Shown piece by piece: positions 4,086-64,000 of a stretch of DNA of 64,000 nt. Every line of letters starts with the position of its first letter. Positions within the stretch are counted from its first letter, which is position 1. Under the pieces are notes generated by a model. It was given only the letters and a program-made list of their open reading frames with translations. It made no database searches and was not told the origin of the DNA. Position numbers and translations under genes: made by a program. The DNA is from Loxodes magnus (Eukaryota > Ciliophora > Karyorelictea > Loxodida > Loxodidae), in the NCBI GenBank assembly GCA_946699065.1, contig CAMPDV010000365.1:1-64000 (forward strand), read 5' to 3'.

Positions 4086-4089
4086 ATTA

Positions 4090-25196: not shown

Positions 25197-25268
25197 TGCC
25201 TCATGGTGTAACGGTTAGCACTTTGGACTTTAAATCCAGCAATCCGAGTTCGATTCTCGGTGAGGCAA
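25197..25268 (+). tRNA. tRNA-Gln (anticodon UUA)
   Basis: The 72-base cloverleaf has a 7-bp acceptor stem (TGCCTCA / TGAGGCA), an A-box region TGGTGTAACGGTTAGCA, a 5-bp anticodon stem TTGGA / TCCAG, a 7-base loop CTTTAAA with anticodon TTA at 25230-25232, and a B box AGTTCGATTCT. It is followed by a T6 run (25269-25274), a pol III terminator. The body closely resembles eukaryotic tRNA-Gln (CUG/UUG), so this is a glutamine tRNA that reads UAA. It is the kind of suppressor-like isoacceptor known from ciliates that translate UAA/UAG as Gln. No intron is seen. Confidence 0.95.
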
Positions 25269-36180: not shown

Positions 36181-36369
36181 TCTGACTATTTTTTTAAAAT
36201 CTCCTGACTTTAATTAAAAATAGGATTAAAATAAAATTAAAAAAATTGAATTTATAGCTAAAAGAAATGACTAATCATACTAATTTTTTATAAAAAAATC
36301 ATGAAAAAAATGCCAGGATTAAGACATCATACTCACGAAGAAATAGAAAAAAATTAATAAAAATTAAAA

Positions 36370-38800: not shown

Positions 38801-40551
38801 ATGTTTTGGTTTGAAAAACTTTTTTCTTAGAAAGAAGGAAAATTATTTTAATTTTTTGGGGACAATATTTGCTTTTATCTATTGATCGTACTAGCTTTCT
38901 TTATAGTTTGCCTAGTATCAAATAAATCAATCTAATAAATTTTATAAGCGCTGTGAAAGGTAGGAAAATATATTAAACAGTAGATATTTAGACTTAATCC
39001 TTCTGATGATTTAGAATCATAAAAAAAAGATTAATCAAAACCTTAACCAAAAGATATCAATCACTAGTCTAAAAAAGACAAAAAGTTGTCTAAGTAACAA
39101 AACTAAAAAAAACTAAAGGCATATTAAAAATAGTCTGAGTAGGATAAAACAAAAATAGAAAAACTAAATAATAAAGAAAATTCTAAACTTTCCTAATAAT
39201 AATTATTATTATAAGTTTAATAATCTTAAATTACAAACAAAAAAGCAACACAAGTGCCTTAAGTTGTTCATATATAATTAAGTCTTTAAGGAATGTAAAA
39301 TCTAGGAAATACTTGTTGGATGAATTCTGGATTATAATGTCTATTACATACTACTCCTCTTGTAGGATACTTTAAGAATAATTAATGGAAAAATAATCTT
39401 AATACAACCAATAAATTTGGAACTAGAGGTGTCATGACTAGAGAGTTCGCTAATATTGTTAACAATGCATCTTATAAAGCTCAAGGAGCTTATAACCCAA
39501 GAAGCTTTAGATAAACATTAATTCAATATGCTCCGTTATTTACTTCAGGAAGACAACATGATTCTCAACAGTTTATTAACTTCTTACTTGATGCTCTACA
39601 CGAAGATCTAAATTAAATAAAAGAAAGACCTTATATTTAAGGAATACCTAGTGAAGGTAGACCAGATGAAATAGTTTCTTAAGAATGTTGGGATAAACAT
39701 TTAAGAAGAAATAAATCTTTCATAGTAGATTTAATGCATGGATAATTAAAATAAACCATTAAATGTGATTAATGCTAGTAAGCATAAGTAACTTTTGATC
39801 CTTTCTAAATGTTCTGTGCCGAAATTCCCAAATAACAAGAAAGAAAAAATACTTCACAACAAGTAAATCTTGAAGATTGTTTCAAATTTTTATAAGAAGA
39901 AGAAAATCAGATGAAATAGTTTCAAACGAAAGTTGGGAAAAATATTTAAAAAGAAATGATTCTTTCATAGTAGATTTAATGCATGGATAACTTAAAATTA
40001 ATCTAACCTGCAAGTAATGTGATAAAAGCTAAGCTAGCTTTGATCCTTTCTAAATATTTCAAGTCGAAATTCCTAAAAAAAATGAAACTGAAATAGATTC
40101 TTATAATTAATCAAATATAATAACTCTTTATGATTGTTTCAAGTTAGTAGAAAAAGAATAAACCTTAAAAGGATAGAATCAATTCTTTTGTACAAAATGC
40201 TAAACTCTTGTGGATGGAATTTAAAAAGTTAGTCTGTTTAAATTGCCTGAAATTTTAATAGTTTATTTAAAAAGATTCAAGCAAAATAACTATTATGTTG
40301 AAAAAAGAAATATTAGTGTGGAGTATCCACTAGAGCTAGATTTAAAATAATTTTTGCCAGAAAACTATAAAGAATCAGCTTTGTATAAGCTTTATGCAGT
40401 GAATTTGCATTCAGGAGGTACAGGAGGAGGACATTACTATGCTTATGCAAAAGTGGGAGAAAATTGGTACTAATTCAATGATTCTTGGGTAAGTGACTAA
40501 AAGGTTATTCAAAGTTCAAATGCATATGCTCTTTATTATCAAAAAATCTGA
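38801..40551 (+). pseudogene. Chimeric USP created at the duplication breakpoint
   Basis: Residues from ATG 38801 to about 39903 repeat the membrane-anchored USP (same helix, same early TGA, GNTCW at 39305). At about 39904 the sequence jumps to the DEIVS block of a different, more diverged USP. That half then runs on its own to [21 protein letters not shown] and TGA at 40549. The DEIVS-to-FDPFQ section is thus present twice. The two halves are in different frames, so no single protein spans the junction. The first half lacks the catalytic His box; the second lacks the Cys box. Confidence 0.85.
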
Positions 40552-44086: not shown

Positions 44087-46657
44087 ATGAAGAATAATAA
44101 AATTAAATTTAGAACCAGTTTGAAAACTAGTACATAGAATGAGTAATAAATAAGGTAAAGATAGTAATCTTAAAAGCCAGAAATAAGAATAAGTTAGTAG
44201 TAACTAAATTAAGGAAGATTTTAAAGCATTAGAGGATAATAGAATACGGGTAATTTGCAAAATAGGAATCGTGGATAAAGTACTAACTACCGAAGTAAAG
44301 AGGAGAACACACATAACTAAATTTAATAATTAAATGAATAAAAAAGTCAGCCTAATTAATAAATTTAGATACGGGATTAGAAATAAAATGATATAAAAGT
44401 ATTATTAGAAATGCAAGAAAAAAGCGGAAATCAAAGATTAAACGATGTAAAAAATCAAATTGCATTATATGGAAGAAATTAGTAATGAAAAACTATAGAA
44501 AATGATATAGTAAATCTAATAAAGGAATAAAAAGAAAATATAAATACCATTTAATAATAAATTTAAAATTATGTATAGAGTATTTAATTTGAAGAATAAA
44601 AATAAACAACATAAAAACATTCTAAATCATAATTTAAATTTATTCAAAGCAATTAGTATAAACTCAATTAAGTGAATAGTATTCAGAGATATTATAATAC
44701 ATATAATTAAACAAATCCTATCTAAAAGTCAGAAGATTATGAAAAAAATGTATAATAAATGCTAACAAAAGAGAAAACAAGTTAAGATGATAAATGAAAA
44801 CAAATTGATTTATAAATCTAGAAAGAAAAAGAAAAATAAGAAAGAGAAAAATAGGAAAGAGAAAGATAAGAAAAACAAGAATAATAAGAAAGAGAAAAAT
44901 AAAAAAGAGAAAAATAGGAAAGAGAAAGATAAGAAAAACAAGAATAATAAGTAAGAGAAAAATAAAAAAGAGAAAAATAGGAAAGAGAAAGATAAGAAAA
45001 ACAAGAATAATAAGAAAGAGAAAAATAAAAAAGAGAAAAATAGGAAAGAGAAAGATAAGAAAAACAAGAATAATAAGTAAGAGAAAAATAAAAAAGAGAA
45101 AAATAGGAAAGAGAAAGATAAGAAAAACAAGAATAATAAGAAAGAGAAAAATAAAAAAGAGAAAAATAGGAAAGAGAAAGATAAGAAAAACAAGAATAAT
45201 AAGAAAGAGAAAAATAAGAAAGGGAAAAATAAGTAAAAACTTAAAAATAGTCGTAGCAATAAGAAATATCTAGCAAGTCAAACGAAAAAATAAATTTAAA
45301 ATAAAACACGGGTTAATAGCAAATTTTAGATAATAAGCTCTCGAATAGCACAGATCAGAAGTAAAATTTATAATAAGAATAAAAATAAATTAAAAAATCT
45401 AACTAAGTGTAGAAATAATAAAATAACGATTTTCAATAATCTAAAAATGCTTAAATAATTGAAAATTAAAAGTAAAAAAATGCAGAAATGGCAGAATCTT
45501 AAAAACAAAGTTTATTAACCAATAATACCATAGTAATTTAATTAAGTTCATAAAAATCAGAAAAATAGCACTAAATCTAAAGAGAAGATTTATAAAATAA
45601 TTAGCAGAACTAAAGAAATAATAGGCAAGATTAATAAACTTTTTCTTTTTCTTTATAATTAAGCTTATAAGGAATATAAAATTTAGGAAATACTTGTTGA
45701 ATGAATGCTGGATTACAATGTCTATTGCATACATCTCCTCTAGTCAAACAATTTCTTTCTTAAGATTGATAATATAATCTTAATATAACCAACAAATTTG
45801 GAACTGGAGGTGTTATGACTAGAGAGTTCGCTAATATAGTTAACTTTACATCGAAAAAGGCTTAAGGAACTTTTAATCCTTACACTTTTAGATAAAAGTT
45901 AACTCAATTCGCTCCTAATTTTACTTTAGGAAATCAACATGATTCTTAATAATTTATCAACTTCTTGCTTGATGCTATACACGAAGATTTGAATGAAATA
46001 AAAGAAAAACCTTATATATAAGGAATACCTAGTGCAGGTAGACCAGATATAACAGTTTCTTAAGAATGCTGGGATAAACATTAAAGAAGAAATAAATCTT
46101 TCATAGTAGATCTAATGCATGGACAATTAAAATAAACTTTAAAATGTGATTAATGCTAGAAAACCTAAGTAATTTTTGATCCTTTTTAAATGTTCTGTGT
46201 TGAAATTCCTAAGTAACAGCAAGCAAAATTATATGATTGTTTTAAGTTTTTATAGAGAGAGGAGCATTTAGAAGGATAAAACCAATTTTATTGTGAGGTA
46301 TGCAAAAATCTCGTAAATGGAACGAAAAGTATTAGTCTATATAAGACTCCATAAATATTCATTGTTTATTTGAAGAGATTCATTTAAAATGGATATAACG
46401 TCATAAAAAATGATACGAATATTAATTATCCATTAGTTTTGAATTTATAGGAATTTTTACCAACAAATTACAATTAGTCTACTCAATATGATCTATATGC
46501 AGTGGATATTCATTCTGGAACAGTAGGAGGAGGACATTATTATGCTTATGCGAAAGTAGAAGGAGAATGGTATGAATTCAATGATTCACGCGTAGGAAGA
46601 TGTAGTAATGTACAAACTTCAAATGCTTATGTGCTTTTCTACCAAAAACATAGTTGA
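44087..46657 (+). CDS. Ubiquitin-specific protease with coiled-coil repeat domain
   Basis: One frame runs from ATG 44087 to TGA 46655, 856 residues, without an indel. The N-terminal 240 residues are Gln/Asn/Ser-rich. Residues about 246-383 are a 21-residue tandem repeat built from Lys, Glu, Gln and Arg (predicted coiled coil). A Gln-rich linker follows, then the USP domain: GNTC (Cys537), [17 protein letters not shown], both CxxC pairs, [15 protein letters not shown] and EFNDSRV. Four in-frame TGA occur at 44486, 44795, 45698 and 45767. The last two sit exactly where paralogues have TGG (after the catalytic Cys, and in the following SxDW block). None lies in the final 890 bases. A cytosolic deubiquitinase with an assembly or targeting repeat is the likely product. 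Confidence 0.82.
44820..45235 (+). repeat. 63-bp tandem repeat encoding 21-residue units
   Basis: About 6.5 units of 63 bases lie in frame within the USP gene, each coding a QEKQEQQEREKQ-type heptad-like stretch. The unit length is a multiple of three, so copy-number change would keep the frame. Units differ by a few bases, including an alternating aag/gtaa difference. The opposite strand is open as a Phe/Leu/Ser repeat, which is only its complement. Confidence 0.9.
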
Positions 46658-47904
46658 AGCTTATTTCAAACTTAATAAATTCATTAAATATTAAAGTTTA
46701 ATTTAAAAGTATAATTAAGAATATAAAACATAATTTTTTCAATAAAAATTTCATAATTATTATTTATCTCTATAATTAAGCATATCTTATTAGAATGATT
46801 CCATTAAAATCTTAACATGAGCCGAAAAATCTTTTGAAATTATAGAAAATTTAATTATTTAATTATTTAATTATTTTAAAAAGCTTTAATTAAAAAAATT
46901 AAATGAAACTAAATTTGATTTAAAATTAAATATTACCAAGCTGATAAAAGTAAAAAAATCATATTCTAAAACTTTAAAAAAATTAAAAAAAAAGAATTTT
47001 AAAATTTAACTTCGATATCTATAAAATTCATAATAATATTAAATAACAAAAATATGAAATTAAAATAGTATAAATTTAATTAAATTAGGATTATAAATAA
47101 TAACGAGTTTTTTTTAATATTTTCTTAAATTTTTTATAAATAATGAAATATAAAATATGTAGTTTAAAATATAATTAATTTAGATAGATATTAAAGGTGA
47201 AATAAAAATAAAGCATATTTAAATTTTTAAATTTAAAAAATAATAAAAATTTGATTCATTTAACTTATTATTAAAAAGCATTGTAACTTTTATTTAAAAA
47301 ATGATAAAAATAAAATAAAATTTTAAAATATTCTTTTAAATACAAAACAGATTAATATTATTTAAAGTCTTTTTCTTTTATTATCTGAAAATTTACAAAA
47401 AAAAACGATTAACGAAGCAAATGTTTTTAAAAAGTTTAAAAGATACTAATTTATCAAGATGAGGTATCATTACTATTTTATATATTAAAAGTATAAAAAG
47501 TTAATCCATCCTTAAATTAGGTAATCTGATCGAGTGAAAACTAGTAAATTAATTTTTTATTTATCATATTTGATTATACTCTATCGAAATGTGATTAAAT
47601 TTATTCAGGTTCTTTATTATTAATTAATAAATAAAAGTATAAATAACTATTTCTTTCATGATTCAAATTCGATTTAGAAATATTTTAAGTATCAAAATTC
47701 TCTCACAATTCCACAAAAAATGTTTAAATATTATTTAAATTTCATTTTAATTAGTATTAATATTCTAAATAAGATTATGCATGGTAGTAGATTCGCTTTT
47801 TATTTATTTATAAAGAAAATTCGTTAATTTTTATTATTAAATTAATAAATTAAAATATTTAATTACAATAAGATCAAAAGAAAAAGATTATATATTTCTA
47901 TGAA
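46658..47904. other. AT-rich intergenic, no gene seen
   Basis: Over 1.2 kb of very AT-rich sequence after the repeat-bearing USP. No frame, RNA gene or repeat was supported. Confidence 0.5.
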
Positions 47905-48065
47905 TACCCAACCAGGAATGGAGAAATTTATAAGAAGAAAACAAGCTATATGAAGAGACAACCATTCCGAAAACTTGACAGTGAAGGGAGGAGAAGACTA
48001 CCTAGAGATTAAGTCCCTATTGGTTGGATAGGGAAGGAGGAAGCTTTTAAGTAGACGATACTTCT
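47905..48065 (+). other. GC-richer island, related to 49000-49140
   Basis: About 150 bases are clearly less AT-rich than the surroundings. One plus-strand frame reads MKRQPFRKLDSEGRRRLPRD, similar to RPFGKLGSELGWRHRRVRD at the 49.0-kb island. The nucleotide match centres on accattc-gaaa-ct-g-agtgaa. It could be a small coding exon family or a short repeat; its nature is not resolved. Confidence 0.3.
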
Positions 48066-48404
48066 TTAAGACTTTAATTTAAATTTATATTTTTATGAAT
48101 CATTAAAGAGATAAAAAATTAAAACTGTTTAAAGTTGAGTCAGAAAAAGAAAGCTTTAGTTAAAAGTATATTTATCAAATTTTTTTAATTTAATAAAGAG
48201 AAAAATATTTTTCAAATTAAAGCTTAATAAAAAATAAAGGTAAATTTTTATTAAATATTTATAACTTAAATTAAATTTTGTTCATTATTATTGTGCATAT
48301 TTATTGAAACAAAATTTTTTATGATAATAGAAAAAGATATTGCTTATGATAGATTTTAATTGATAGATTTTATTATTTTAAAATAAATATAAATATTTTA
48401 TTAA

Positions 48405-48960
48405 TTAAGTTCTTCTTGATTTTCTTTAGTTTCTCGTTCATTAATTCTATTTTATCTTTTAGAGTTTTATTTTCTAATTTTTTTTTTCTATTTCTTCTTT
48501 TATTTTCAATATTAGATTCTGACAGCTCTGTTGCACTTAAGATAAATTGCTCCTAAAAATTTTGTTAGAATAGCGGTAAAGCTTGTTGGATTTCAGTAGG
48601 TCTTTAATGTGTTTAATCAGAATTAATTTATATTTGCTGCATTAATATTATAAATGACCAGGTCTGTTGTAACATCAGCACAATTTTATATTTTTTTGAG
48701 AAGCAACTGTTGCTCAATTTCCATATATATCGGCTCTTCTATCTACTTAAACTTAATTAATTAAATTACTTTGAAAGTTTTTTCTGTATCTTTTTCTTTA
48801 TTCATCAGCAGTTGTTCATTTTTTTGAATTAGTCCTTATTTTCTTTCTTGTAAAGTTTTCATTTCATCTTTATCTTTTAGTAGTTATGATTCTAACCATA
48901 ATGTTATATATGCGGCAGTTTATTCCACTTATGAAAAAAGTGTAGGAGGAATTGGTAAAT
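48405..48960 (-). pseudogene. Gag-like remnant with imperfect zinc knuckle
   Basis: The minus strand codes a Lys/Glu-rich coiled-coil-type protein. It contains a block reading CWCYNRPGHLQYQC, close to a retroelement zinc knuckle (PGH plus terminal Cys) but one residue off in the first spacing, probably after an indel. The Trp is TGA. A frame change occurs around the knuckle. It belongs with the gag-like ORFs at 11.6 and 17.8 kb. Confidence 0.4.
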
Positions 48961-48999
48961 AAGAAAAAAAATTTGGAAAGAACTTACAAATTTTTATTT

Positions 49000-49140
49000 T
49001 CCTCGGATGGTTAACTTTGAAGAAAAAAGATCTCTCCAAGACCATTCGGAAAGCTCGGAAGTGAACTTGGGTGGAGACACCGGCGAGTCCGAGACCCCGT
49101 AAAAGGTAATGCAGGGGTTATGAATCTATTAAGGAAACAT
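49000..49140 (+). other. GC-richer island, related to 47905-48065
   Basis: This is a second short island of higher G+C content. It shares a protein-level and nucleotide-level motif with 47905-48065, which lies 1.1 kb away on the same strand. It shows a faint likeness to the central part of 5S rRNA, but no 5S fold could be completed. Confidence 0.3.
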
Positions 49141-49559
49141 TCCATTATCCATAAAATTTTTAATTTAATTTAATGATTCTAACCATTATAAGAATACATC
49201 TCTATCAGGAATTTTTTATTTTTTTAATCTTATTCCAGAATGCATATCTTCATTCTAGAGTTTGATTGGGCTTTTGTTCAGCACTTGGTGAAATGAAAGA
49301 AGAAGATTCCTTTTTCTTTTACTCTCTCTATTCCTTATTTAATTTTATCTTCTTTTTCTTTTAGAGAATATTGTCTTAATCCTGTCATTTTTTTTTATAA
49401 AAGATTAGCTTAATTATTCATATTTTTTAGTTATAAGTTTGAATTATTTTTATTTATTTTAATCCTCTTTTTATTAAAGTCATGAAACCTTAACAAATAA
49501 TCAGAAAAAATTTGAAATATAAATTCCTTTAAAAAATTTCAATTGAAATAATTATTTTC

Positions 49560-49830
49560 TTTAAATTTTTGAGGACAGCAAAGCTCTAGCATTGCTGCTT
49601 TCTCATATCAGCTTATTTATGGACATAACAGAGATGATCTACTTATCAATTTTTGTAAACAAAGATGGTCAGGAGTAATAAATTCATATTCCATAATCAT
49701 AGACTTTAAATCTTTGCCAAAGATAGATATACTTTCAGATACTTTTACTTCAAGTTCTTGAATCTAACTAGGTATATTTCTAAATTAGAGTTATAATCAG
49801 AAATTTCAAAATCTTTTTTCTTTCTTTCTT
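49560..49830 (-). CDS. Hypothetical protein M, third copy (inverted)
   Basis: On the minus strand, blocks SQIQELEVKVSES, SIFGKDLKSMIMEYEFIT and HLCLQKLIS align residue by residue with the M copies at 4.1 and 35.9 kb, in a frame open across all of them. Amino-acid conservation exceeds that of the flanking DNA, which supports a real protein. Start and stop are not fixed. It is divergent from the intact USP at 51118, as in the other settings. Confidence 0.5.
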
Positions 49831-51117
49831 CTGATTTTTAAATAATTTTAATTTATTCTATATAATTCTTCTAAACATTTATAATTTAAATCTTTTTTTA
49901 TAAAGTCAACATTTTAAATTTTATTTCATTAATATTAAAAAAGCTCAAAAATATTTTTCTGCAAAAAGAAAAAAAAAATTGAAAAAGACATTCAGATCTA
50001 AAATTAGAGTTATTGGATAATAGTTCTAAGCACTAAAATTAAAAAAAAGATAAGCTAAATAATTTTGATTGATAACTGAAAACTTTTAAGTTATAGGAAT
50101 CAATTTTCTTTTTAAAATTTATGAGAATCAAAATAATGGAGGATTTATATTAATGATAATCAAAATTCGATTCCACTATTTAACTTATTTTTATTTTTTC
50201 AAAAAAATCTAAATATTTTAATTATTAAAAAAGATATTAAAGAAAAATAATTTTTATAAAATGCAATCTAAATTAGAAAAATAGTAAAAGATATTGATTA
50301 TTGTTATACTAGAAAAATAATAAAATAAGATATTAAATATTACAACTAGCAACTATTAAAATTAGATAAATTTAACTAAATTGTATAGAGACATTTTTAG
50401 ATTATATTAAATTAATGAAATTTATATTGAAACTTTTTTTGGTAGTTGCAAAAAGAATAAAAAAAGTTTTAGATTATCTAATAAAATATTTCTAAAAGTA
50501 TTAAGAAATCAAAATTATAATTATAATCTCTCTGTTCATCTGAAAATTTTCAAACTTTTTTTATAAAATAGTAATAATTAGATTCTGAATAATTGAAAAT
50601 ACCATAAATACAAAGTTACATAATAATATAAACTTAAAATTGCTAAATAAAAATGAACTAAATAAGCTTATTTATGCAAATTTATTAAATAAGATTTTAA
50701 ATAACTTTATAGAGAATTACTTAATTGCTCAAACAACAAAAAGAATGACCTTATTACTTCAGTTTCTAGTATTACCTTACGAATATAAAGGCATATCTTT
50801 AGAACTAAAAACCGGGTTAATTTAACAGAATTTTTTGCGATTTTTAAACTTAAATTTTCTTTTAAGATCAGAAAAACTAGGAGAATATTAAAATCAGCTT
50901 TTATTCTACAAGTTCATGCAATTTAAAATTTTAAAGATAATTAATTTATAAAATAACTAAGAATCAGCTAAAATAAAAATTAAATTGCTTTTATAAAATT
51001 TTCATAAATTACGTTCACAATATAAATGAAAAAAGGTTATTTTATAATTTAGTTTTTCACGTTCATTTATGTAAAAAATAACTTTAAGATCTATTTTCGT
51101 TTAAGTTTAATAAAAAT
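49831..51117. other. Divergent intergenic region, inverted relative
   Basis: Resembles the reverse complement of 2695-4085. Small frames here are not conserved between locations, so it is treated as noncoding upstream sequence shared by gene M and the USP. Confidence 0.5.
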
Positions 51118-52326
51118 ATGGGATGTAAAGTTTGCTTTAAAGAAAATATTGACTAATTTGAAATTGTCTAATAACAAGTATAAAAATCATAAAGATAAAG
51201 TCATGAAAATAGAAAAAATTAGTAAAAAAATGAGCAAGAAGAAAATTAAAAAAATAAAGAAAATTAAATTTTGCAAAAAGAACACGAAAAAGATGAAAAT
51301 CTTTAGTACTTTATAGAGTTAAAAAATATAGGAAATACTTGTTGAATGAACTCTGCCTTATAATGTTTATTGCACACAACACCTCTGACTAAATATTTTC
51401 TTTCTGATGATTGAAAATAAAATCTTAATACAGACAATAAATATGGGACTGGAGGTGTTATAACTAAAGAGTTTGCTAAAATCGTTAAATGAGCATAAAC
51501 TAATCCTCAAAATGTTTTAAGTCCTTCAACTTTTAGATAAAAATTAATACAATTCGCTCCTAATTTTACTTTAGGAAATCAACATGATTCTCAATAATTT
51601 ATCAACTTCTTGCTTGATGCTATACACGAAGATTTGAATGAAATAAAAGAAAAACCTTATATATAAGGAATACCTAGTGCAGGTAGACCAGATGAAATAG
51701 TTTCTTAGGAATGTTGGACTAGACATTAAAGAAGAAATAAATCTTTTATAGTAGATCTAATGCATGGACAATTAAAATAAACTTTAAAATGTGATTAATT
51801 TAAGTAAACTTAAGTAACTTTCGATCCTTTTTAAATGTTCTGTGTTGAAATTCCTAAAAAATAAAATTTAAGTTCAGAGAGGAAATTTCTTTCTATTTAC
51901 GATTGTTTAAGTAATTTTGAACAAGAAGAATATTTAGAAGATTAATAGCAGTTTATTTGTGAGAATAATTAGACTAAAGTAAATGGAATTAAGTAAGTAA
52001 AGCTATATAAAACCCCTGAAATTTTAATAATATACTTAAAAAGATTTAAATAACATGGATATTCAATTAAAAAAAATTAGACATATGTTGAATATCCCTT
52101 ATAGTTAGATTTAATCAATTTTTTGCCTGAATATTAAAATCAATCAACAGTATATGATTTGTATGCAATTAATGCACATTCAGGAAGTGTGGAATTAGGA
52201 CATTATTATGCTTATGCAAAAGAAGGAGATTAATGGCTCAAATTTAATGACTCTCATGTAACCAAGATGAAAGATGTTTAAAATTCAAATGCGTATGCCC
52301 TTTTTTATAGAAGAAAATAGAATTGA
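51118..52326 (+). CDS. Ubiquitin-specific protease, Met-Gly-Cys N-terminus
   Basis: A single frame from ATG 51118 to TGA 52324 gives 402 residues. The start MGCKVCF fits N-myristoylation at Gly2 with palmitoylation of Cys3/Cys6. Then come about 65 Gln/Asn/Glu-rich residues, then the USP domain: GNTC (Cys75), [17 protein letters not shown], Cxx[15 protein letters not shown] and FNDSHV. Three internal TGA occur: 51343 (after the catalytic Cys, TGG in paralogues), 51412 (second family Trp) and 51490. None lies in the last 830 bases, and there is no indel over 1.2 kb. The second Cys of the first CxxC is Phe, and one zinc position in the second pair is Asn, so the zinc finger may not bind metal. 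Confidence 0.85.
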
Positions 52327-52574
52327 AAATACTTTTATTTACTAAATTTATAAATTTTAATCTTAATATTTTATTATGCTTTATGAAATTAAAAAAATCA
52401 ACATTGACTATGTGCGAATAAATATTCTTAATATCTTAAGCCAATAAAGAAATGCTATTATAAAAAATAACTTTATAACTTAATGAACATTTATTCATAT
52501 GATTCTACCTTTTATCTAATAGTTCTTGTTCTTTTAAAGTTTTAAATTTGATGAAAAAAATTGTAATTAGCAAC

Positions 52575-53130
52575 ATTCTTGATATTGCATAAATAAATTT
52601 CTTTTGTGTTAAGTTGCAAATTATCAAAACTTAACAAAACAATTTCCCAAAATTTAGCTTAATTCTCTTTTAAAATCAATTACCTCGAATCTCAGTCAAA
52701 AGATGATCAACACTAGTTTCCTCATTTCTTAATTATTAGCAACTCCAAGTATCCCTTTTTAAATCTATATTCTACAGATAAAATTTAATAAATCAATTCT
52801 ATATTTTTCCATTAGGTATATTACTCCTAGATTTATAAGAAACTAAAATGTTTAAAGATAAAGAAATAAAATAAATCAGTTTACTTAAAGAAAAAAAATT
52901 AAACAAAATTTAAATTTTATTCTCTTCAACTATATTTAAAACCATCACTATCTAATTATGTCTAACATAAATATTTATTTTGTAATATCTCTCATTTCTC
53001 TTCATTAGTTTTAATATAATTTATTATATAAAATAATTTTATTTTGATACTTTTTCTTTTATATTTTAAATCTATAAAATGGATTATAATTAAATAGCTT
53101 CTATTTAGGTTAGTTTTCGAGAGTTATAAA
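52575..53130. repeat. Post-USP noncoding repeat, copy A
   Basis: Nearly identical over about 500 bases to 62116-62650 and related to 17080-17770. All three follow a USP gene or remnant. No frame is conserved. The high identity indicates recent duplication or conversion between the 52-kb and 62-kb loci. Confidence 0.9.
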
Positions 53131-53319
53131 TTTTGATATTTTTTAGTAAAATTTAAAGATAAAAGTATTATATTCTCACTTTCTCTATTTACTTTAAGTC
53201 TGTTTGGTTTTATTAGATTAATCTTTTAGTTTTTATTAGATTTTTCTGTAAATAAACACTAGTAAATGTGAAACAATCAAATTTGTTTAAATATAAGAGC
53301 TTAAAAAATTGAATTTAAT

Positions 53320-53995
53320 TTAAAACTGGAAGGTTAGCATTTCAAAAAGAAAAGCCAAGTGACTTACCTTGGAGTCATAATGCAAGAAATTAGATATTTG
53401 ATTAGCCACTGTAAATAAAGGGCTTAAAATTATTTGGGACCGGTAAAGAAATGCATTTACACTCTCAATTGATAATCTAATGTAAACATCTGACAATTCA
53501 AAATGCTCTATCAAATGTTTACACTGCTTCCAGCTGAACACTGTGGGAAACGTTCTTTGAACTGTAAGGAGAAGCTCATAGAGTATGAAAGAGAAGATAA
53601 ACAAAAGTATGAGTATAATGGAGAGGAAAACTATAAAGTCGCATATTACTGTCTTTAATGAGGCTTGTTACATAGACATTAACTGACTACCATTTAGGCA
53701 TATAATGGCTAAAAACTTTTTCCAATTCTACTTTAAAATATGGAAAAAGCTTGTTCTTATCCAGAATCTTGACGAGAGCCAAGAGAAGACAAGATCAAAG
53801 AAGCATCAAATAGCGTTAATATTGAAAGATGCCAGATACTAAGTTCTCTTAGGGTAGCATTCTGATCACGGCCCTATAGAAGAAAAAACTCGCAAGAATA
53901 TGCTAGCACTGTAAAAGTTTTCAGAAGAATATTTTTGGCTTTAAAAAATTTTTATTAAAGAGTTACGCGCATCGAGATTCTACATTCTCTATAGT
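53320..53995 (+). pseudogene. 5'-truncated non-LTR reverse transcriptase tail
   Basis: The plus strand reads KKSQVTYLGVIMQEIRYL, matching the VTYLGV block of the reverse transcriptase at 10.1-11.4 kb. It then runs through LLPAEHCGKRSL and PESWREPREDKIKEASN to SRPYRRKNSQEYASTV and a terminal TRIEILHSL. The last part matches the fragment at 9213-9440. Four TGA would be Trp. It contains only the region after the catalytic core, as in 5'-truncated LINE insertions. The minus strand also has an open frame of 94 codons, which I take as antisense. Confidence 0.6.
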
Positions 53996-54147
53996 CTTAG
54001 TTTTTTCTATAAAACTTATAAAATAAATCCTAAATTATACTGAAAAAAGATTATAAAATAATTTCTTTTGGAAGGTCTTTAGTTATTATAAAATAAAAAA
54101 GCTAAATAAAAATTCTTTTAAGCGTTAAATAAGTCAATTATAATAAA

Positions 54148-56142
54148 ATGTATTAATTCTAGAAAAAAAGTAAAGGGACAATTTAGAACTCTTAAAATAG
54201 GTAGAACAGTGAGCTTTAAGAAATTAAATAATTTTAAAACTATCAAACTACATATTAAAGCTAATTTTGTGCTATTAGAAATGAAAATCAAGGTACCTAA
54301 AGTAAATGATAATAAGAACCTAATTATTTAAGGGTTAATCAGTAATAAGATTAGACAAAGTATTGTTAGAATAATCAATAAAATAAAAATGATTAATCTT
54401 AAGAATTTTAACCTTAAGATAAGAGATAAATGGAATAACAACTAATTAAAAAAAATGAAATAGATTAAAGAAACCCTTAAACTTCCCCATAGACTAAAGC
54501 CATATTATAGAGATAATCAAGATAGGAAATTTAAAATGAAAAATTAAATAGAAATGTTGCACCTAACAATCATCATAAATAAGTATAAATATAAAACAGT
54601 AGTATCTAAAAACTTAATAGCGTTTAGTAATAAAAAATCATAGAAAGTTAACAATGGGATTAAAAGCAAATCCTTTAAAAGTAAATCAAACATTAAGATT
54701 AAATTATTTAACCTTGGTAACAAGAAGAATAGTATAATTTTTTGATTAATGAAGAAAAATAACAGATTGAGCAGCGTTCTTTAAAACAGAAATAGTATTA
54801 ATCTGAATATTTATCAGAAAATACAATCACGTACATACAATTGATTGAAAAATATAGAAAAAATCCTATATAATTAAGTAAAGCTGGACTTTATAATTTA
54901 GGAAACACATGTTGAATGAATTCTGCTTTGTAGTGTCTATTACACACATCTATTCTGGTTTAATATTTTCTTAATGAAGATTGATAATATCATCTTAATA
55001 TAACCAATAAATATGGAACTGGAGGTGTTATAACTAGAGAATTCTCTTAAATCGTTTAATAAACTCTAAAAAGTCAATCATTACTTTATCCTATTGAGTT
55101 TAGAGAAATAATTTAAAGTTTTGCTTCATAGTTTACTATAGGAAGCAAACAAGATTCTCATTAGTTTATTAACTTCTTACTTGATGCTATACATGAAGAT
55201 TTGAATGAAGTAGTAGAAAAACCTTATATTAAAGGAATACCTAGTGAAGGTAGACCAGATGAAATAGTTTCTTAGGAATGTTGGAATAAGCATTTATGAA
55301 GAAATAAATCTTTTATAGTAGATCTAATGCATGGACAATTAAAATAAACTTTAAAATGTGATTAATGCTAGAAAACTTAAGTAACTTTCGATCCCTTTCA
55401 AATACTCAGTGTAGAAATTCCTAAATATAATAGTTAAGAAACTCACTATCATCATCAAAAAAAATAAATAACCCTCTAGGACTGTTTTAGTTATATATAA
55501 TAAACTGAATAATTAAAAGGATAAAATTAATTTTATTGTGAAAAATGTAAAAGGAAAGTGGATGGAAAAAAGAAATTAAATCTGTATAAAGTTCCAGAAA
55601 TTTTTATAGTCAACTTGAAAAGATTCAAACTAAATGGTTATTCAATCGAAAAAGACAATACTCCTGTAGATTATCCTTTAGAGTTGGATCTCAAAGAATT
55701 TCTACCAGATTTGTACAAAGAATCAACAGTTTATGATTTATATGCAGTAAATAATCACCTTGGTAGTACAAGAGGAGGACATTACTATACTAATGCAAAA
55801 GTCGGAGAAGAATGGTATGAATTTGATGATTCTAGAGTAGGAAAAAGTACAAGAATAAAGAGTTAAGATGCTTATTTACTATTTTATCAAAGAAGGAGCA
55901 AAAATTCCAAGATTCGCCAAATAAATTAACAATAAATCTCAAATTTTTACTTAAAATTGAATAAATCTAAAATTAAAAGATTTATTTAAAAAAATAGATT
56001 AAAAATTAAAATTTTTTGTTATCAATGCTTAAAGTTAATTAAACAATATTCTTTAAAAATAATTATTTTTATTTTAATAATTAATTAATTAAATAATTTA
56101 ACTAAAAAAGTCTAAAATCGAAGTTTTTTTATTTTAAATTGA
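54148..56142 (+). CDS. Ubiquitin-specific protease with Gln-rich N-terminus
   Basis: From ATG 54148 one frame stays open for 664 residues. Residues 1-250 are extremely Gln/Asn-rich, and the USP domain follows: GNTC (Cys255), [22 protein letters not shown] and CEKC pairs, RGGHYYTNAKVGEEWYEFDDS with Asp in the triad place. TGA occurs at 54307, after the catalytic Cys (54913), at the second Trp (about 54982), and at 55297 in place of Arg. The usual TGA stop after the YLLFYQ block is missing; the next TGA is at 56140, and the tail between looks AT-rich. Either the protein is extended or TAA near 55925 ends it. The paralogue at 62828 shares the N-terminal Gln-rich region. Confidence 0.8.
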
Positions 56143-56209
56143 ATTAAATTATTTATTATTTCATTTAAATTAAGGATTTATTCTTTTTTATTATCTTTAA
56201 ATAAAAAAG

Positions 56210-56720
56210 AGGGGAATGTAGATTGATTTATGTTTGATGCTTTCAGAATAATTTAAAAAAGATTCAATGATTTTCTATTTTTTCTGAGGTTTAATAAAGA
56301 TTTGAACTGTATTTGATTAATAGATTTGTTTCTTATTTAAATAGCTTGTTGATTAAGTCATTTCATTAATATCAGCATTAATATGTTTTAATCCTTTAAT
56401 CTCTAACTAGTTCATTATGGTATTAATTTCTTTTATTCCTCTATAAATTTATTAAATCTTATTTCTTTAATTCTTTGCTGCTTTATTTATATTTTTCAGT
56501 AGCAATTTTAAATTATGAATTTTGACATTTTTAGATAATGCTTTAGTAAATTAAAAGACTAGCTTCTTTTTATTTGAGTATACTTTTTCATTTCTCTTTT
56601 CGTATCTATCTGCCTCTATATCTTGCACGTCGATTATTTTTTACTTTTTTCTGTTTTTTATATTAATTCTTTATTATATCTTTCTTTTCTCATTATAGTT
56701 AAAAATATTTCTAAAACTTA
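56210..56720 (-). pseudogene. Hypothetical S, copy 2
   Basis: Minus-strand Lys/Gln/Glu-rich sequence resembling 19060-19520, also downstream of a minus-strand USP. No start, stop or domain is recognised. It marks the edge of the module duplicated between 19-22 kb and 56-61 kb. Confidence 0.4.
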
Positions 56721-57328
56721 AATTTAAAGCCTAGTTATATGTTTTAAGTTAGAATAAGATGATATTAATTTGAAGAAGTCCTTTATAAAATAATCTGACT
56801 ATATTAGTTTCTATTTCTTATTTATATTTTTTAGATTAATTCTATTTAATTTCTATTTTCTCAAGGTTAAATATATTTAAATAGAATCTTTTTATACTTT
56901 AGAGTTAATTATCTCAAATATGAATTTAACAAACTTAATTTTCCAGCCTTTGTAATTTAAATTTAATAAAAGGTCCTTCATTTTTTACTTTTATTTTCGT
57001 AATAATCATACTAAAGGCAATTTTAGTATGTCTCTATAAATTTAATATTAGTATTAAAAAAACATCTATAATAAAAAAAGGATTTAATTAATTTTATTTA
57101 GTATCACTAAAATATTTAAATTGCATATAATATTAAATGCCTTACAATTTAATTTATTTTAATATTTAATAAATAATTTAAATTTAATAAGGTAGATAAG
57201 ATGATTTACTTATATAAGATAAACTAGCTTTTTTAAAGTTCTAATGTGAAATACTATGCTAAATTAAAATTTATTTAATGTGATATTTAGATTAATGTTT
57301 AATGAATTCTAAAATTTTTATCGATAAA

Positions 57329-59029
57329 TCACCTACGCTTTTGATAGAAAAGCACATAAGCATTTGAAGTTTGAGCACTACCACATCTTCCTACGCGTGA
57401 ATCATTGAACTCATACCATTCTTCGTCTACTTTCGCGTAAGCATAATAATGTCCACCTCCTACTGATCCAGAATGAATATTCACTGCATATAAATCATAA
57501 ACTGATGATTCTTAGTACTATTCTGGTAAAAATTCCTACAGATTCAATTCTAATGGATAACTAACACTCATATTATTTTTTATGATGTTATAGCCATTTT
57601 AAATGAATCTTTTTAAATAAACAATGAATATTTCAGGAACCTTATATAAGTTAATACTTTTCGTTCCATTTACGTGATTTTTGCATTTTTCACAATAAAA
57701 CTGGTTCATTCCTTCTAAATGTTCTTCTCTCTATAAAGATCTGAAGGAATTCTCAAGATTTACTTACTAACTATATTGCTAATTTCATCTTTCTATTTGT
57801 TATTTAGGAATCTCAACACAGAACATTTAAAAAGGATCAAAAGTTACTTAAGTTTACTAGCATTAATCACATTTAATGGTTTATTTTAATTATCCATGCA
57901 TTAGATCTACTATGAAAGATTTATTTCTTCTTTAATGTCTATCCCAACATTCCTAAGAAACTATTTCATCTGGTCTACCTTCACTAGGTATTCCTCCTAT
58001 ATAAGGTTTTTCTATTACTTCATTCAAATCTTCGTGTATAGCATCAAGTAAGAAGTTAATAAATTATTGAGAATCATGTTGATTTCCAAAAGTAAAATTA
58101 GGAGCGAATTGAGTTAATATTTATCTAAAAGTTGAAGGACTAAAAACTCCTTGAGTATTGTTAGATATGTTTATAGCAATATTAGCGAATTCTCTAGTCA
58201 TTACACCTCCAGTTCCAAATTTATTATTTTTATTAAGTTTTGTAATTCAATCTTAAGACAGAAAGTGCTTGACTAGAGGAGTAGTATGTAAGAGACATTG
58301 TAATCCAGCATTCATTCAGCAGGTATTTCCTAGGTTACTAAATCCAATTTTTTACAAAGAATGATTATTTTTCTAAATTTGACATGGCAGAGGCTCGCTA
58401 CTTTCATCATTTTAATAATTATTATTTGATTTATAAATATGCCTATTGTCACTTTCTTTCATTTTTTTGCTACTATTACTTGCATTTTAAAATTAATTCT
58501 CGCCCCTTTTTTTGTTTTTTTTATCACTTTTGCTTTCTTGCTAAGGATCCCTATTGTCATTTTTTTAATTGTTTTATTTAATAACGCTTTATTTTTAAAG
58601 TATGTCCATGCTACTATCTTTTTCGTTTTAATTAATCTAACTTGATTCCTTTTAATTATTATTATAACTTTCTTTTTTATTTTAAGCCCTATTACTTGCA
58701 TTTTAAAATTAATTCTCGCCCCTTTTTTTGTTATTTTAACCCTTTTTGCTTTCTTGCTAAGGATCCCTATTGTCATTTTTTTAATTGTTTTATTTAAGAA
58801 TACTTTATTTTTAAAGTATGTCCATGATGCCATCTTTTTCGTTTTAATTACTCTTACTTGATTCCTTTTAATTATTACTATCACTTTTTTTTTTTTTTTA
58901 ATCCCTATTATTTACGCCCCTTTTTTTGTTTTTTTAACCACTTTTACATTCTTATTAAAGATTACTTTCGCTATCTTCTTAAACTTTATTATTTTTTCAT
59001 CATCTACAACAAAAACAATTTTATCCCAT
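57329..59029 (-). CDS. Ubiquitin-specific protease with 72-residue tandem repeats
   Basis: From ATG 59029 to TGA 57329 the frame is intact, 566 residues. The start MGQNCFCCRWW combines a myristoylation-type Gly2 with three Cys for palmitoylation; the two Trp are consecutive TGA. Residues about 60-205 hold two tandem copies of a 72-residue Lys/Asn/Gln-rich unit (MDILQKQS, NNQKNDNRDPQQE). The USP domain follows: GNTC (Cys237), [22 protein letters not shown] and [25 protein letters not shown]. Further TGA stand after the catalytic Cys, at the second family Trp, and at 57785 in a variable loop. It is divergent from gene K 245 bases away. A membrane-tethered deubiquitinase is likely. Confidence 0.85.
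58455..58890 (-). repeat. 216-bp tandem repeat inside USP gene
   Basis: Two adjoining units of 216 bases (72 codons) are nearly identical; a partial, more diverged third lies at 58900-59000. The length keeps all frames in register, so the alternate minus frame is also open, but only the frame continuous with the USP domain has Gln/Asn-type composition. The repeat is recent. Confidence 0.85.
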
Positions 59030-59274
59030 TTTATAAAAAGTTTTAAACTTATCAAATTAAATTCAAATATTATTTTATAAAGTGAATAGAATTTTATTAG
59101 GTAAACTTACATTCTAACATTCTAACTATAATTTTCTGAATTTTTCTCGTCGATTTTTTCATTTTAATTCTTTTAACTTTTAAGCAAGTAATCTATATCG
59201 TTAGTATTTTGTTCTCTGTTTGTTTGTTTAATACGTATTTACTTTTTTTTGGGTTTAGCCATTTTCATTAAGCT
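59030..59274. promoter_or_regulatory. Divergent promoter region between USP and gene K
   Basis: The 245-base AT-rich gap between two oppositely oriented start codons probably holds both promoters. A segment (attcttttaacttttaagca) is also found upstream of the K remnant at 15 kb. No specific element can be named. Confidence 0.4.
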
Positions 59275-60096
59275 ATGAAAAATTTTCCCGAATTTAATCA
59301 TATAAATGATAAGATCCATAGTTTATCTGATCTAAGTAGAAAAATTAAAAAATGGACAGTCATCCGAAAATATTTAATGAAAAAGGGCTTTCGATTATCA
59401 AAGAATAATTTGAGAAATTAAGTAAAATTTGATAGTGAAGCAAAGGATTATCTAATCTTTTAAAAGTAAGGGAAGGCTTCTTATTAACAAAAATGTAGCA
59501 ATTCAAAAGATTGGAGAACAAGTTAACGTTTGAGAATTAAAATTATTGAATGCGAAACTAAAAATAATTGCATAAATTAAGGAAGATATTTAGGATTAGA
59601 GTAGATACTCTAAAGCCTCAAAGTAAGACTTATATGCTATGAAAAAGATCTACGTTGTTTTTTGGTTTAATCGAATTGAATACAAGAATAAATTGAAATC
59701 AGTAAAAGAAGAAACTTAATCTTAGTAATTAAAGCAAGCAAATCATGCATAAAAAAAATATAAAAAGAAAATTGCAATTAAAGATGATATCGAAAGATCA
59801 GAAAAATAATAATGAAATGAATATATGAAATGGATGGATTAAAAAGCAAAATAAATGAAATTTATATACTAAAAATTAATGAAATAAATTTCAACACTGC
59901 GATTCAATTAATATTTAGTCAAGAACTGATTGATACTTAAAAATAGAAGAAATAAAGATTATAAATTATAAAGAGCTATATCAATATTCTATTATGATAA
60001 TTAATAATAACACAAAACACGTTTTATCTTACAGTGTATTATACTGTAAGCTAAACGGAAAACTAGTAAAAATCATTAAAGAGAAAAAAGATGTGA
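59275..60096 (+). CDS. Hypothetical protein K
   Basis: From ATG 59275 a frame of 273 residues reads MKNFPEFNHINDKIHSLS, DLSRKIKKWTVIRKYLMKK, a basic middle, KWIYEMDGLKSKINE and a Lys-rich end, closing at TGA 60094. Internal TGA fall as Trp, one of them conserved in all three copies (K-W-IYEMDG). Remnants lie at 15096-15930 and 21470-22180. A hydrophobic frame continues upstream of the ATG, so a longer membrane protein is possible. The YLMKKGF region faintly resembles ion-channel C-linkers, but I do not assign that. It is divergent from a USP and convergent with gene O. Confidence 0.55.
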
Positions 60097-60203
60097 AGCT
60101 GAAAATCTATTAAGACTCTTTAATAAATTTTTTTTGAGTTAATTTATTATAATTTCTACAAGTAGGTAACAGACATTTTGATTCTCAAGAGTTTAAAACC
60201 AGT

Positions 60204-61030
60204 TCAATTCTAGGCTTATGCTTCGTCTTCTGATTTAGTTTCTTCCTTTGATTTTCGTCACATGCGAAGTAAAAGATAGCAAAGTCTTTCTAAAAATTCT
60301 TGTTGATTTTCTTATTTTTTTATAATTTTTCCAAAGATGTCGTGTGCTACAGATGTAGTATCTTTTCTTGAAAGTTTTTACTTTTGCTAAAGCTCTTTCT
60401 TTATCCTTTGAATTCTGCTTTAATCTTTTAGGGTTGTTATTATTCAATTTTATGTAAGACTGCTTCTATTTTATTGTTTCTTGTTCCTCGGCCTAGGTTG
60501 ATCTTTTCTTGCTTCATAAAGTTTTTCACTTAGAAGCTTCTTATTGATCTTGGTCTAACTCTTCATCTTAGTTTCATACTACTTCTTGGAATTATAACAG
60601 GTTGTATGAAAATTTAAGTCTATGGTACTAAATTCGATGTTATGTTGGAATAATTCCAACTCTCTTTCCAGTTCTATGACAATTTTAGTTAGTCGAAATT
60701 GTCTTTTTATGTCTACTTCAAATCCATTCTAAAGACTTATTCTTTGGTTACTCCAATCATCACCTGTAGTAAATTTTATTACATTAATCCCTTCTTCCGT
60801 TATTTTTATTTTTTTCACGTATTTTAGTTTTAGTTATAGAGAATTGTTAATGTTCTTCGTATCGTCTTGAAGGATTGGATAGAAGTATTGCTTGCTTAAT
60901 ATATTTTCAGTTCCATTTATATTCCTTTTGTACCAATCAAGAAGGTTAGACTGATTGAAACTAAGAAGTGAGCTAAAGAAGAGATGTTCCTTACTCTCTC
61001 TTCTAATCTGAGGAGGTGATAAAATAACTC
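60204..61030 (-). CDS. Hypothetical protein O
   Basis: On the minus strand a purine-rich frame reads YFITSSDQKRESKEHLFF, DWYKRNINGTENILSK, TTGDDWSNQRISLQNGFEV, a charged region with HNIEFSTIDLN and YETKMK, and DTTSVAHDIFGKIIKK, ending AQAQN then TGA at 60204. Relatives at 16000-16330 and, rearranged, at 4562-6240 and 36370-38045 show conserved residues in this frame. The start is not fixed. A hydrophobic frame at 60917-61216 overlaps in another phase and is probably not the gene. No known domain was recognised. It is convergent with gene K. Confidence 0.5.
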
Positions 61031-61639
61031 TTCTTGAAGATTTGTCATAAAAATTAAGCTCAGAAGGATAAAAACGTGCAAAGTTAAGCTATCGTTATAG
61101 AAAAGGATTATAATAAACAAAATAAAGCTAATTATATTCAAGAGAGTCAGAATAAACATAATTGAGAGAATGTTATTAGAAACATGAAAACTATAGAAAA
61201 AATCTAAAAATGCCAAAAATAGTAGATAAAAGAAAAGATGAAAGATGATGATAAGTTTATTTATAAATATAAAAAGAAAAAGAAAAATAGTATATGTCTA
61301 AGTAATTAAATGAATAAAAGATTTAAAAATAAAAAAAAGGATAGCAATAAGATTTAGATTATCTATGATAAAACATTTAGAATTAAAGAGAAAAAAATTA
61401 ACTAAGCGTAGAAAATATAAAATAGCGATTTTCAATAATTTAATAACTTTCATATCATTAAAAAATATATATATATAACTGTAAGAGATTTAAGATTAAA
61501 GTTAGCTAATCAATTAAAAAAAGAAATTTGGTTAGATTTATAAAAGACCGAAAAGAAGCGAAGATATCTGAAGTCCAGTTTATAAAATAATAAGCAGATA
61601 TAATAATATAATAGGAAAGGTAAATATGTCTTCACATTT
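61031..61639. other. Degraded linker before USP remnant
   Basis: Contains sequence resembling the region just before the USP domains at 16.3-16.6 kb and 45.3-45.7 kb, with indels. No intact frame. Confidence 0.45.
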
Positions 61640-62115
61640 TCTTTTAATTAAGTCTTTAAGGAATGTAAAATTTAGGAAATACCTATGATTACATCTAGAT
61701 TATAATATCTATTACACATATATCTTCTAGTTTAGTATTTTCTTTCCCAAGATTGAAATCTAAATCTAAACACAGATAATAAATTTGGAACGGAGGTATA
61801 ATGGCTAGAAAATACTCTAAGATTGCTAAAAAAACATTTTACAAAGCTTAAGAAGTTTTTAGTCCTTTAAATTTTAGATAAAAATTAATATAATTCGCTC
61901 CTTAATTTTCTTTAGGAAATAAAAAAGATTCTACACCAATGATCAACTAATTATCTGATACTATACATGAAGATTTAAATGAAATAGAAGAAAAACATTA
62001 TATAAAAGGAAATCCAAGCGAATATAGAAAAGATGAAGACGTTTCTTAAGAAACAAGAAAAAAATAAATCTTTTAAAGTAGATTTAATACATAGGTAATT
62101 TAAATACATTCAATA
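61640..62115 (+). pseudogene. USP-family N-terminal remnant, catalytic Cys lost
   Basis: The USP domain starts at about 61674, but the GNTCWMNS box is damaged: after GNT the sequence reads acc-tat-gat-tac, so the catalytic Cys is gone. Later blocks ([25 protein letters not shown]) are recognisable with frameshifts, and the domain stops before the zinc finger. It is the sister of the remnant at 16600-17150. Confidence 0.8.
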
Positions 62116-62650
62116 GCAACCTTGATATTGCATAAATAATTTTTATGTGTTAAGTTGCAAATTACAAAACTTAATAAAACAATTTCCCAGAATCTCAGTC
62201 AAAAGATGATCAACACCAGTTTCCTCATTTCTTAATTATTAGCAACTTCAAGTATCCCTTTTTAAATCTATATTCTACAGATAAAATTTAATAAATCAAT
62301 TCTATATTTTTCCATTAGGTATATTACTCCTAGATTTATAAGAAACTAAAATGTTTAAAGATAAAGAAATAAAATAAATCAGTTTACTTAAAGAAAAAAA
62401 ATTAAACAAAATTTAAATTTTATTCTCTTCAACTATATTTAAAACCATCACTATCTAATTATGTCTAACATAAATATTTATTTTGTAATATCTCTCATTT
62501 CTCTTCATTAGTTTCAATATAATTTATTATATAAAATAATTTTATTTTGATACTTTTTCTTTTATATTTTAAATCTATAAAATGGATTATAATTAAATAG
62601 CTTCTATTTAGGTTAGTTTTTGAGAGTTATAAAATAATCAAAAAGAGAGA
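62116..62650. repeat. Post-USP noncoding repeat, copy B
   Basis: Nearly identical to 52575-53130 over about 500 bases. It lies between the USP remnant and the partial USP at 62828. Confidence 0.9.
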
Positions 62651-62827
62651 AATAAAAAACGCTTTTTATCGTTTTTTTCTTAAATAAAACTTATAAAATA
62701 AATAATAAATTTACACTGAAAAAAGAATTATAATGCAAATTATTTTGGATGGTCTTTAGTTACAAAATAAAATAAAAAAGTTTAATTTTCTTTTTAAATA
62801 CTAAATCATTTAGTCAGTATAATAGAA

Positions 62828-64000
62828 ATGAGACATTACTAAAAAGCAAATATAGATGCAAATTACTATTCTTAAAATGGATTTAATAGTTAAAGTAGAG
62901 GGAGGATATCCGTCTAAAATTAGTAATCAACATATGGAAGTTAGAATCTTGCATATAGGAATGCAAGTCATAATTCTAATATTAAATTCGACTAATAAAA
63001 TCAAGATTTCAAGAGCATTTAGAAATAAGAATAGATAAAGCATTTTATAAATAATCAATAAAATAAAAATTATGAAGCATGATCTTAAGATAAGAGATAA
63101 ATGGATTAACAGCTTATTGAAAAAAACAAATAAGAATAATAAAATACTTAAAATATCCCATAGTCTAAAACTATGGTATAGAGATAAGCTAGATAGGAAT
63201 TTGGAAATTAAAAATAGAAAATTGATATATATGACAATTATTATAAATAAGAATAAAGGTAAAATAATTGAAATTATCAGTTTAATAATGTTTAGTAGTT
63301 TGATTACCTAAAACTAACTGAAAAATTTGAACAGGAAAAAAAGTAAAATTAGTAATAATTTGATAAATATGCTGATTAAAAATATTAAGTTTAGTAGTAA
63401 GTTAAATAGAATTAATTTTAAACAAGTTAATATGGATTCAAGGGAATACAAAATAACTAATTGAACTTATAAGAAAACAAAAATTAATAAAGCAAAGAAA
63501 TATATCAGCAAAATACTAAATAACAGTATCCATAACAAGAAAAGTGTGGCGTTTTTGAAAAATTATATTCAAGCAAATAAAAAATATAGGATTAGTAAAA
63601 CAACAAAAACTTTTAAATTGAAGAAGAAAAGCTGAAATAAGCTCAGAATATTTAAAAAAATAAATACCTCTAATCTGAATAGTTATTATGAATAGAAAAA
63701 AAATAAACAGAAATGGATGTAAGATTTAGAAAAGATTCTATATTAATGAGTAAAGTAGGATTTTAAAATTTAGGAAATACCTGTTGGATGAATTCTGGAT
63801 TGTAATGTCTTTTACACACATATCCTCTAATTATATACTTCCTTTCTGAAGATTGAAAATATGATCTTAATAAAAGCAATAAATTTGGAAATAGAGGTGT
63901 TATGACTAGAGAATTTGCTAATATTGCTATAAACATATCTAACAATACTCAAGGAGTTTTTAGTCCTTCAACTTTTAGATAAATATTAACTCAATTCGCT
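62828..64000 (+). CDS. Ubiquitin-specific protease, 3' end outside window
   Basis: ATG 62828 starts a frame open to the window end (391 codons). The first 315 residues are Gln/Asn/Lys-rich and align with the N-terminus of the USP at 54148 (shared NNQQNKN and QDKRQM[ED]QQLI blocks). The domain starts at GNTCWMNSG (Cys319) and reaches STFRQILTQFA, where the window ends. Trp after the catalytic Cys is TGG; the second family Trp is TGA (63857). Other TGA occur in the N-terminal region. No indel is seen. Both loci are followed or preceded by the same noncoding repeat, so they are recent duplicates. Confidence 0.8.

Follow-up and report, generated by a model that had tools for sequence, protein, structure and literature searches.

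A question raised by the USP (ubiquitin-specific protease) genes of the karyorelict ciliate Loxodes magnus is how one codon, TGA, can lie inside their open frames and also end them. The genes that raise it are in a window of 64,000 nucleotides of nuclear DNA, positions 1–64000 of contig CAMPDV010000365.1 (here C365), and we searched the whole genome assembly to which it belongs (GCA_946699065.1; 705,730,643 bases in 7843 contigs). On the sequence evidence we are nearly certain that the code of L. magnus is ambiguous, such that UAA and UAG specify Gln and UGA is read as Trp inside frames and as stop near the 3′ end of the mRNA. The dual meaning of UGA in this species is already known and published (PMC11441545); according to that account, karyorelicts including Loxodes use NCBI table 27, in which UGA is stop or Trp, and the L. 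magnus macronuclear assembly is 706 Mbp. That the place in the mRNA, and not the codon alone, can decide whether an ambiguous stop/sense codon terminates was established earlier. Added here are dozens of paralogs with TGG/TGA swaps at fixed sites, two tandem arrays of open-stem tRNA-Trp in that genome, and also a testable hint of a UAA stop. Only the UAA stop may reach past what was already established.

The window has a GC content of 19–28% per 2-kb step. Under table 11 it holds only four stop-to-stop frames of at least 150 amino acids, and the USP genes open once UAA and UAG are taken as sense. Full-length copies match the UCH family (PF00443) with E values of 1e-55 to 1e-61 against the Pfam profile. 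A scan for the motif GNTC-x-MN with up to 3 mismatches returned 18 matches, of which the 12 with zero mismatch are USP copies (forward strand: 7501, 16638, 30359, 39305, 45686, 51331, 54901 and 63773; reverse strand: 58330, 34292, 21062 and 2482); the other six, each with 3 mismatches, were discarded. An earlier note on this DNA had counted 10 TGG and 12 TGA at two sites in 12 copies, one site directly after GNTC and the other 23 codons further on, and the scan reproduces these totals: TGG in 6 and TGA in 6 copies at site 1, and TGG in 4 and TGA in 6 at site 2, where copies 2482 and 34292 are out of register. These two are frameshifted and lie inside a duplication with 99% identity (1–8103 and 31809–39907, 8.1 kb, USP copies included), which may be recent or an effect of assembly and which makes the window copies partly non-independent. 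In four copies both sites are TGA and in register, where the earlier note had given five, and its two mixed copies are there (16638 and 63773). A tblastn search in which TGA is scored as a penalised stop recovers the same USP places without presuming Trp. The five window copies that are full-length and keep a single frame hold 11 in-frame TGA codons, of which 8 fall within 20 Trp cells among 1694 codons (P ~ 1e-14, hypergeometric, with related copies treated as independent).

USP genes form large arrays in this genome, with at least 111 UCH matches; arrays are found on C365, C1431, C1234, C3033, C3243, C4067, C5109 and C1716, and near-identical array pieces recur across contigs. We fetched 60 further stretches from the 111 matches (40 of a short and 20 of a long subfamily), and 8 more long copies came with the search. 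The short set comprised 45 full-length single-frame copies, reduced to 43 distinct ones by removal of two identical sequences (near-identical ones were retained) and aligned with TGA masked. TGA is column-specific in this alignment: 49 of the 76 in-frame TGA codons stand in four Trp columns, in which TGG is otherwise the usual codon, when 0.9 would be expected (49 of 172 Trp-column cells versus 27 of 14,368 remaining cells). Column 17 holds TGG in 28 copies and TGA in 15; column 40 holds TGG in 13, TGA in 28, CAA in 1 and CAG in 1; and column 319 holds TGG in 37 and TGA in 6. Grouping columns with at least 30 letters by their usual codon gives TGA shares of 49/172 for TGG, 2/375 for AGA, 4/731 for GGA, 0/724 for TTA, 0/204 for TCA, 2/728 for TAA, 1/387 for TGT, 0/43 for TGC and 16/11,039 for all others. 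A tree from which the Trp columns were excluded requires at least 5 codon changes at column 17, 8 at column 40 and 3 at column 319. The alignment of TGA to conserved Trp columns beyond the window, which the earlier note had proposed as a check, thus finds TGA enriched in the short copies, and the 28 long copies agree: TGA fills 46 and TGG 48 of the 112 cells in their four Trp columns, versus 63 TGA in 16,172 cells of other columns, a tally that omits 7 further TGA in thinly filled columns.

Similar signals are found outside the USP family. A pattern for a kinase-like motif in which any codon was allowed at the Trp position matched 257 times, compared with 71 for the reversed control, and the first 100 of the 257 matches hold TGA in 19, TGG in 13, TAA in 1 and none of the seven remaining codons that differ from TGA by one base. 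A divergent actin-like paralog (L121), translated with Trp for TGA, carries this codon at a residue conserved as Trp in solved actins. As for UAA and UAG, Gln is the commonest residue both in USP columns that hold TAA (238 of 724 cells, followed by Ser with 147, Lys with 104 and Glu with 94; stop-like codons were excluded from the vote) and in those that hold TAG (66 of 170 cells). The window also contains a tRNA gene with the anticodon UUA, the body of which we take to be Gln-like.

If the TGA-bearing copies were pseudogenes, in which AT-biased mutation had turned TGG into TGA and UGA was stop only, frameshifted and repetitive copies would be no surprise, and both occur: window copies 2482, 16638, 30359 and 34292 are frameshifted, the array is repetitive and 27 of the 76 in-frame TGA codons of the short set lie outside the Trp columns. 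We nevertheless consider decay very improbable. The frame is maintained, with TGA at 76 of 14,540 in-frame codons versus 221 and 555 of 14,497 in the two other frames, and the median dN/dS, with TGA counted as Trp, is 0.31 for the 32 short copies with TGA at a Trp column, similar to the 0.34 for the 11 without. Moreover, TGA occupies 9 of 3192 cells in columns with AGA, GGA, TTA, TCA, TAA, TGT or TGC as the usual codon and 49 of 172 cells in those with TGG, and long USPs, the kinase-like motif and actin give a similar signal.

Several observations weigh against the reading of UGA as Trp. Column 141 is TGG in 42 short copies and CGG in 1, with TGA in none. Some of the 27 TGA outside the Trp columns are at Arg, Gly, Cys or Lys sites, as if some copies were decaying or Trp were tolerated there; 7 of the 27 are common to one Tyr column, and many of the 63 such codons in the long copies are at Tyr or Phe sites. 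Phe and Tyr codons together make up 61 of the first 100 of the 257 kinase-like matches, which are putative kinases. In the solved USP15 chains that we compared, presumably human, the two sites of the earlier note hold Phe and Tyr. At these sites the reading as Trp therefore rests on the TGG paralogs; the third Trp column (319) is Trp there too. A further feature concerns usage. TGA makes up 0.39 of TGR in the short copies (0.81–0.97 for other A-ending partners) and 0.57 in the long copies (0.67–0.79), and because these shares are below those of the other partners, TGA is used but apparently held back, more so in the short family, as might be expected of an ambiguous codon.

The same codon is placed at the ends of genes. 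TGA occurs exactly three codons past the motif that ends the USP domain in 29 of 40 scored short copies and two to four codons past it in 32 of 40, whereas in the other-frame control it falls within four codons of the motif in 5 of 80. Counting short and long copies together, 50 of 70 anchored copies have TGA within 12 codons after the motif (L042–L044, unanchored in the 40-copy scoring, enter only this count, and L003 is unanchored in it). The statement of the earlier note that the genes with internal TGA also end with TGA holds for three of the five genes concerned (44087, 51118 and the minus-strand 57329) and fails for 54148 and 62828, which appear to end at TAA. Other families gave the same picture for TGA. 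An actin C-terminal pattern matched 85 times, and the 20 matches fetched carry TAA (13), TAG (1), TGG (2) or TGA (4) at the end; all four actins read end in TGA, and by eye none of the 16 fetched matches without TGA is an actin. Nine of ten matches to the H4 C terminus end in TGA, as do both intact H4 genes read; the single TAA-ended match belongs to a broken copy, and an H3 pattern matched once, at a sequence that is not a histone. Actins, H4 and H3 ending in UAA were sought by these patterns, and none was supported among 20 of the 85 actin matches, the 10 H4 matches and the one H3 match. In 50 TGA-ended genes the final 20 codons contain neither TGA nor TGG, that is, Trp is simply absent there.

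How internal UGA could be decoded is suggested by the tRNA genes. Tandem arrays of tRNA-Trp(CCA) are present on C148 (spacing ~241) and C67 (~187). A tRNA-Trp loop pattern gave 127 matches genome-wide and 0 with the reversed pattern, and the 100 listed matches (49 on C67, 49 on C148 and 2 on C110) all have CCA. The earlier note had suggested a search for tRNA-Trp(UCA); anticodon UCA is absent from the 100 listed of 127 matches and from the 2 of 2 of another pattern, although a divergent tRNA could escape such patterns (a genome search with RF00005 was dominated by repeated tRNAs). A likelier decoder is the tRNA-Trp(CCA) of the arrays, in which the top pair of the anticodon stem (27:43) is open in all five copies read (stem check, and cmscan for two): A.C in both C67 copies (L134 and L135) and U.C in the three C148 copies (L107, L108 and L136). 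The open pair thus differs between the two arrays, as if the mismatch itself were kept. Pointing the other way, three tRNA-Trp(CCA) copies read on C110 have a full five-pair stem; the relative L105 (C7736) has one inner mismatch. The C110 genes had been considered as a refutation of the open-stem mechanism and were set aside once the C148 and C67 arrays were found. The tRNA genes on C110 (L099, L100, L104, L106 and L109), for Trp, Met and Arg, share a similar body, in most cases have an additional base in the T arm, and are possibly tRNA-derived repeats.

Changes in the release factor, also raised by the earlier note, were found. Two eRF1 genes on C196 were identified in a search with Pfam eRF1_1. 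The first match of that search, L101, looks like Pelota and was set aside. Of the two C196 genes, L102 keeps the NIKS motif and differs around it from solved eRF1, with GRAQNIKSRAVQKA in place of the GTASNIKSRVNRLS of 4d5n; in the YxCxxxF stretch, Phe replaces Tyr.

In the most likely mechanism, internal UGA would be read by tRNA-Trp(CCA), the lost top pair of the anticodon stem allowing it to accept a C:A wobble, and near the poly-A tail eRF1 would win over the tRNA, so that UGA terminates. In the USP arrays, TGG and TGA would then interchange as near-synonyms under purifying selection. Elsewhere UGA has other sense meanings, namely Cys in Euplotes and Sec in selenoproteins, and recoding to one of these, or editing of UGA to UGG in RNA, is a further rival reading. 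This we judge still less probable than decay: at the USP sites TGA alternates with TGG and then with Tyr or Phe, only 1 of 430 Cys-column cells is TGA, and the open-stem tRNA-Trp arrays make editing unnecessary. Distance to the 3′ end would be the switch between stop and sense, in line with the published model (PMC4967479; PMC11441545). The median 3′ UTR of L. magnus is given as 41 bases (PMC11441545). The open-stem form of tRNA-Trp(CCA) is said to be reported for Loxodes (PMC13092985).

In the other 20 anchored USP copies, 54148 and 62828 among them, the 12 codons after the domain-end motif contain no TGA, but in all 20 they contain TAA. UAA may therefore be, besides the known code, a stop that some USP genes use in a context-dependent way; a single gene such as 54148 would then use UGA for Trp and UAA both for Gln and as its stop. 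We regard this as evenly balanced for and against. Among the TGA-ended copies, TAA precedes TGA in 3 of 50, and in L038 TAA stands at the exact position of the TGA of its relatives. Comparison of related copies (groups A, B and C) revealed frame-breaking gaps after TAA in 6 of 7 pairs and no gap in the 240 bases before it in every pair compared; L035, L047 and the long copies were outside the gap comparison, and two L038 pairs have no gap after TAA. The first description of the karyorelict code (Peer Community J. 2022) reportedly speaks of a ‘small minority of stop-UAA’. In their final 20 codons, the 50 TGA-ended genes contain TAA 6, CAA 61, TAG 8 and CAG 4 times, compared with 444, 162, 152 and 48 times in codons −21 to −200. 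UAA is thus avoided near the stop, unlike UAG, and published work on L. magnus reports that coding UGA and UAA, in contrast to UAG, are depleted before stops (PMC11441545).

Other observations argue against a UAA stop. AT-rich tails are rich in TAA, and 43 of the 50 TGA-ended copies have a TAA within 12 codons after TGA; with the control equally high, a bare TAA near a gene end was dropped as evidence. TAG comes ahead of TAA in L001 and L064, the only 2 of the 70 anchored copies in which UAG is first, and L054 may be a genuine C-terminal extension. The actins and the intact H4 genes read end in TGA, the H4 match with TAA being broken, and the copies are related, which makes the counts non-independent. 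The stronger claim, that UAA is a second, regularly used and context-dependent stop, and that more than one-quarter of the USP genes read (20 of 70, including 54148 and 62828) end at UAA in mRNAs that further upstream use UAA for Gln and UGA for Trp, is tentative, and we place it slightly below an even chance.

Three known codes invite comparison, among them that of Condylostoma magnum, which we take to be table 28. All 64 codons can be sense in it and termination is set by the transcript end (PMC4967479), as would be the case in Loxodes. In C. magnum, termination is inferred for each of the three stop codons, whereas in Loxodes UGA is dominant, UAA is possible and UAG is ambiguous in two copies. 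Blastocrithidia, in which UGA is also reassigned, is alike in having a tRNA-Trp(CCA) whose anticodon stem has four pairs, the top one being open (PMC13092985), and in a dual sense/stop role of UAA; it differs in that UAR is Glu and that UAA, not UGA, also terminates (PMC12153298). The karyorelict code itself (table 27; Parduczia sp. and Loxodes) shares UAA and UAG as Gln, internal UGA as Trp and terminal UGA as stop (PMC11441545). The reading in the earlier note, which had matched the window to this table, is supported by the USP columns, the kinase motif, actin, the actin and H4 C termini, the tRNA genes and the published account. Nothing essential differs, except that in 20 of 70 USP copies here UAA seems to stand in for a missing UGA stop. 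The word ‘ubiquitin’ is absent from the main text of PMC11441545, and no wider literature search for USP arrays was made.

Features of the window, with the codons at the two USP sites, the end of the gene and the E value of the UCH match
Feature	Positions	Strand	Sites and in-frame TGA	End	UCH E	Remarks
USP gene	44087..46657	+	TGA at both sites (45698–45700, 45767–45769); two more in-frame TGA (44486, 44795), both in the unconserved N-terminal part	TGA 46655–46657	8.5e-60	Single frame with TAA/TAG as Gln
USP gene	51118..52326	+	TGA at both sites (51343–51345, 51412–51414) and one variable column	TGA 52324–52326	1.1e-60	
USP gene	54148..55929	+	TGA at both sites (54913–54915, 54982–54984), an Arg column and the N-terminal part	Proposed TAA 55927–55929		83 codons past domain-end motif without in-frame TGA
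USP domain	57329..58360	−	TGA at both sites (58318–58316, 58249–58247) and a Lys column	TGA 57331–57329	4.4e-61	
USP gene	62828..64000	+	Site 1 TGG (63785–63787), site 2 TGA (63854–63856)	Apparently TAA		Extends beyond window; traced past its edge as L016, 71 codons without TGA
USP domain	7474..8487	+	TGG at all four Trp columns; zero in-frame TGA			Internal control
USP copy, degraded	30347..31347	+	TGG/TGG; TGA at zinc-ribbon Cys column			Frame break
USP copy	39278..40545	+	TGG/TGG			Two overlapping USP pieces
USP copy	20075..21077	−	TGG/TGG			Broken frame
USP copy, frameshifted	1756..2494	−	TGA at GNTC site			Duplicate at 33565–34304
USP copy, partial	16611..16960	+	Site 1 TGG, site 2 TGA			Frameshifted
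tRNA gene, anticodon UUA	25197..25268	+				Fits UAA as Gln

A Pfam scan in six frames (E ≤ 1e-3; positions 44001–64000 and 1–29999) found UCH and one sub-threshold IBR_1 match. The latter (27148–27240) is weak, at 22.9 bits against a cut-off of 27, and is perhaps the RBR module mentioned in the earlier note. Two repeats accompany the USP copies: a 63-base unit in 6.5 copies (44823–45231) runs in frame within gene 44087 and codes for a charged low-complexity stretch, and a 216-base unit in 2 copies (58473–58910) lies upstream of the minus-strand USP domain at 57329..58360.

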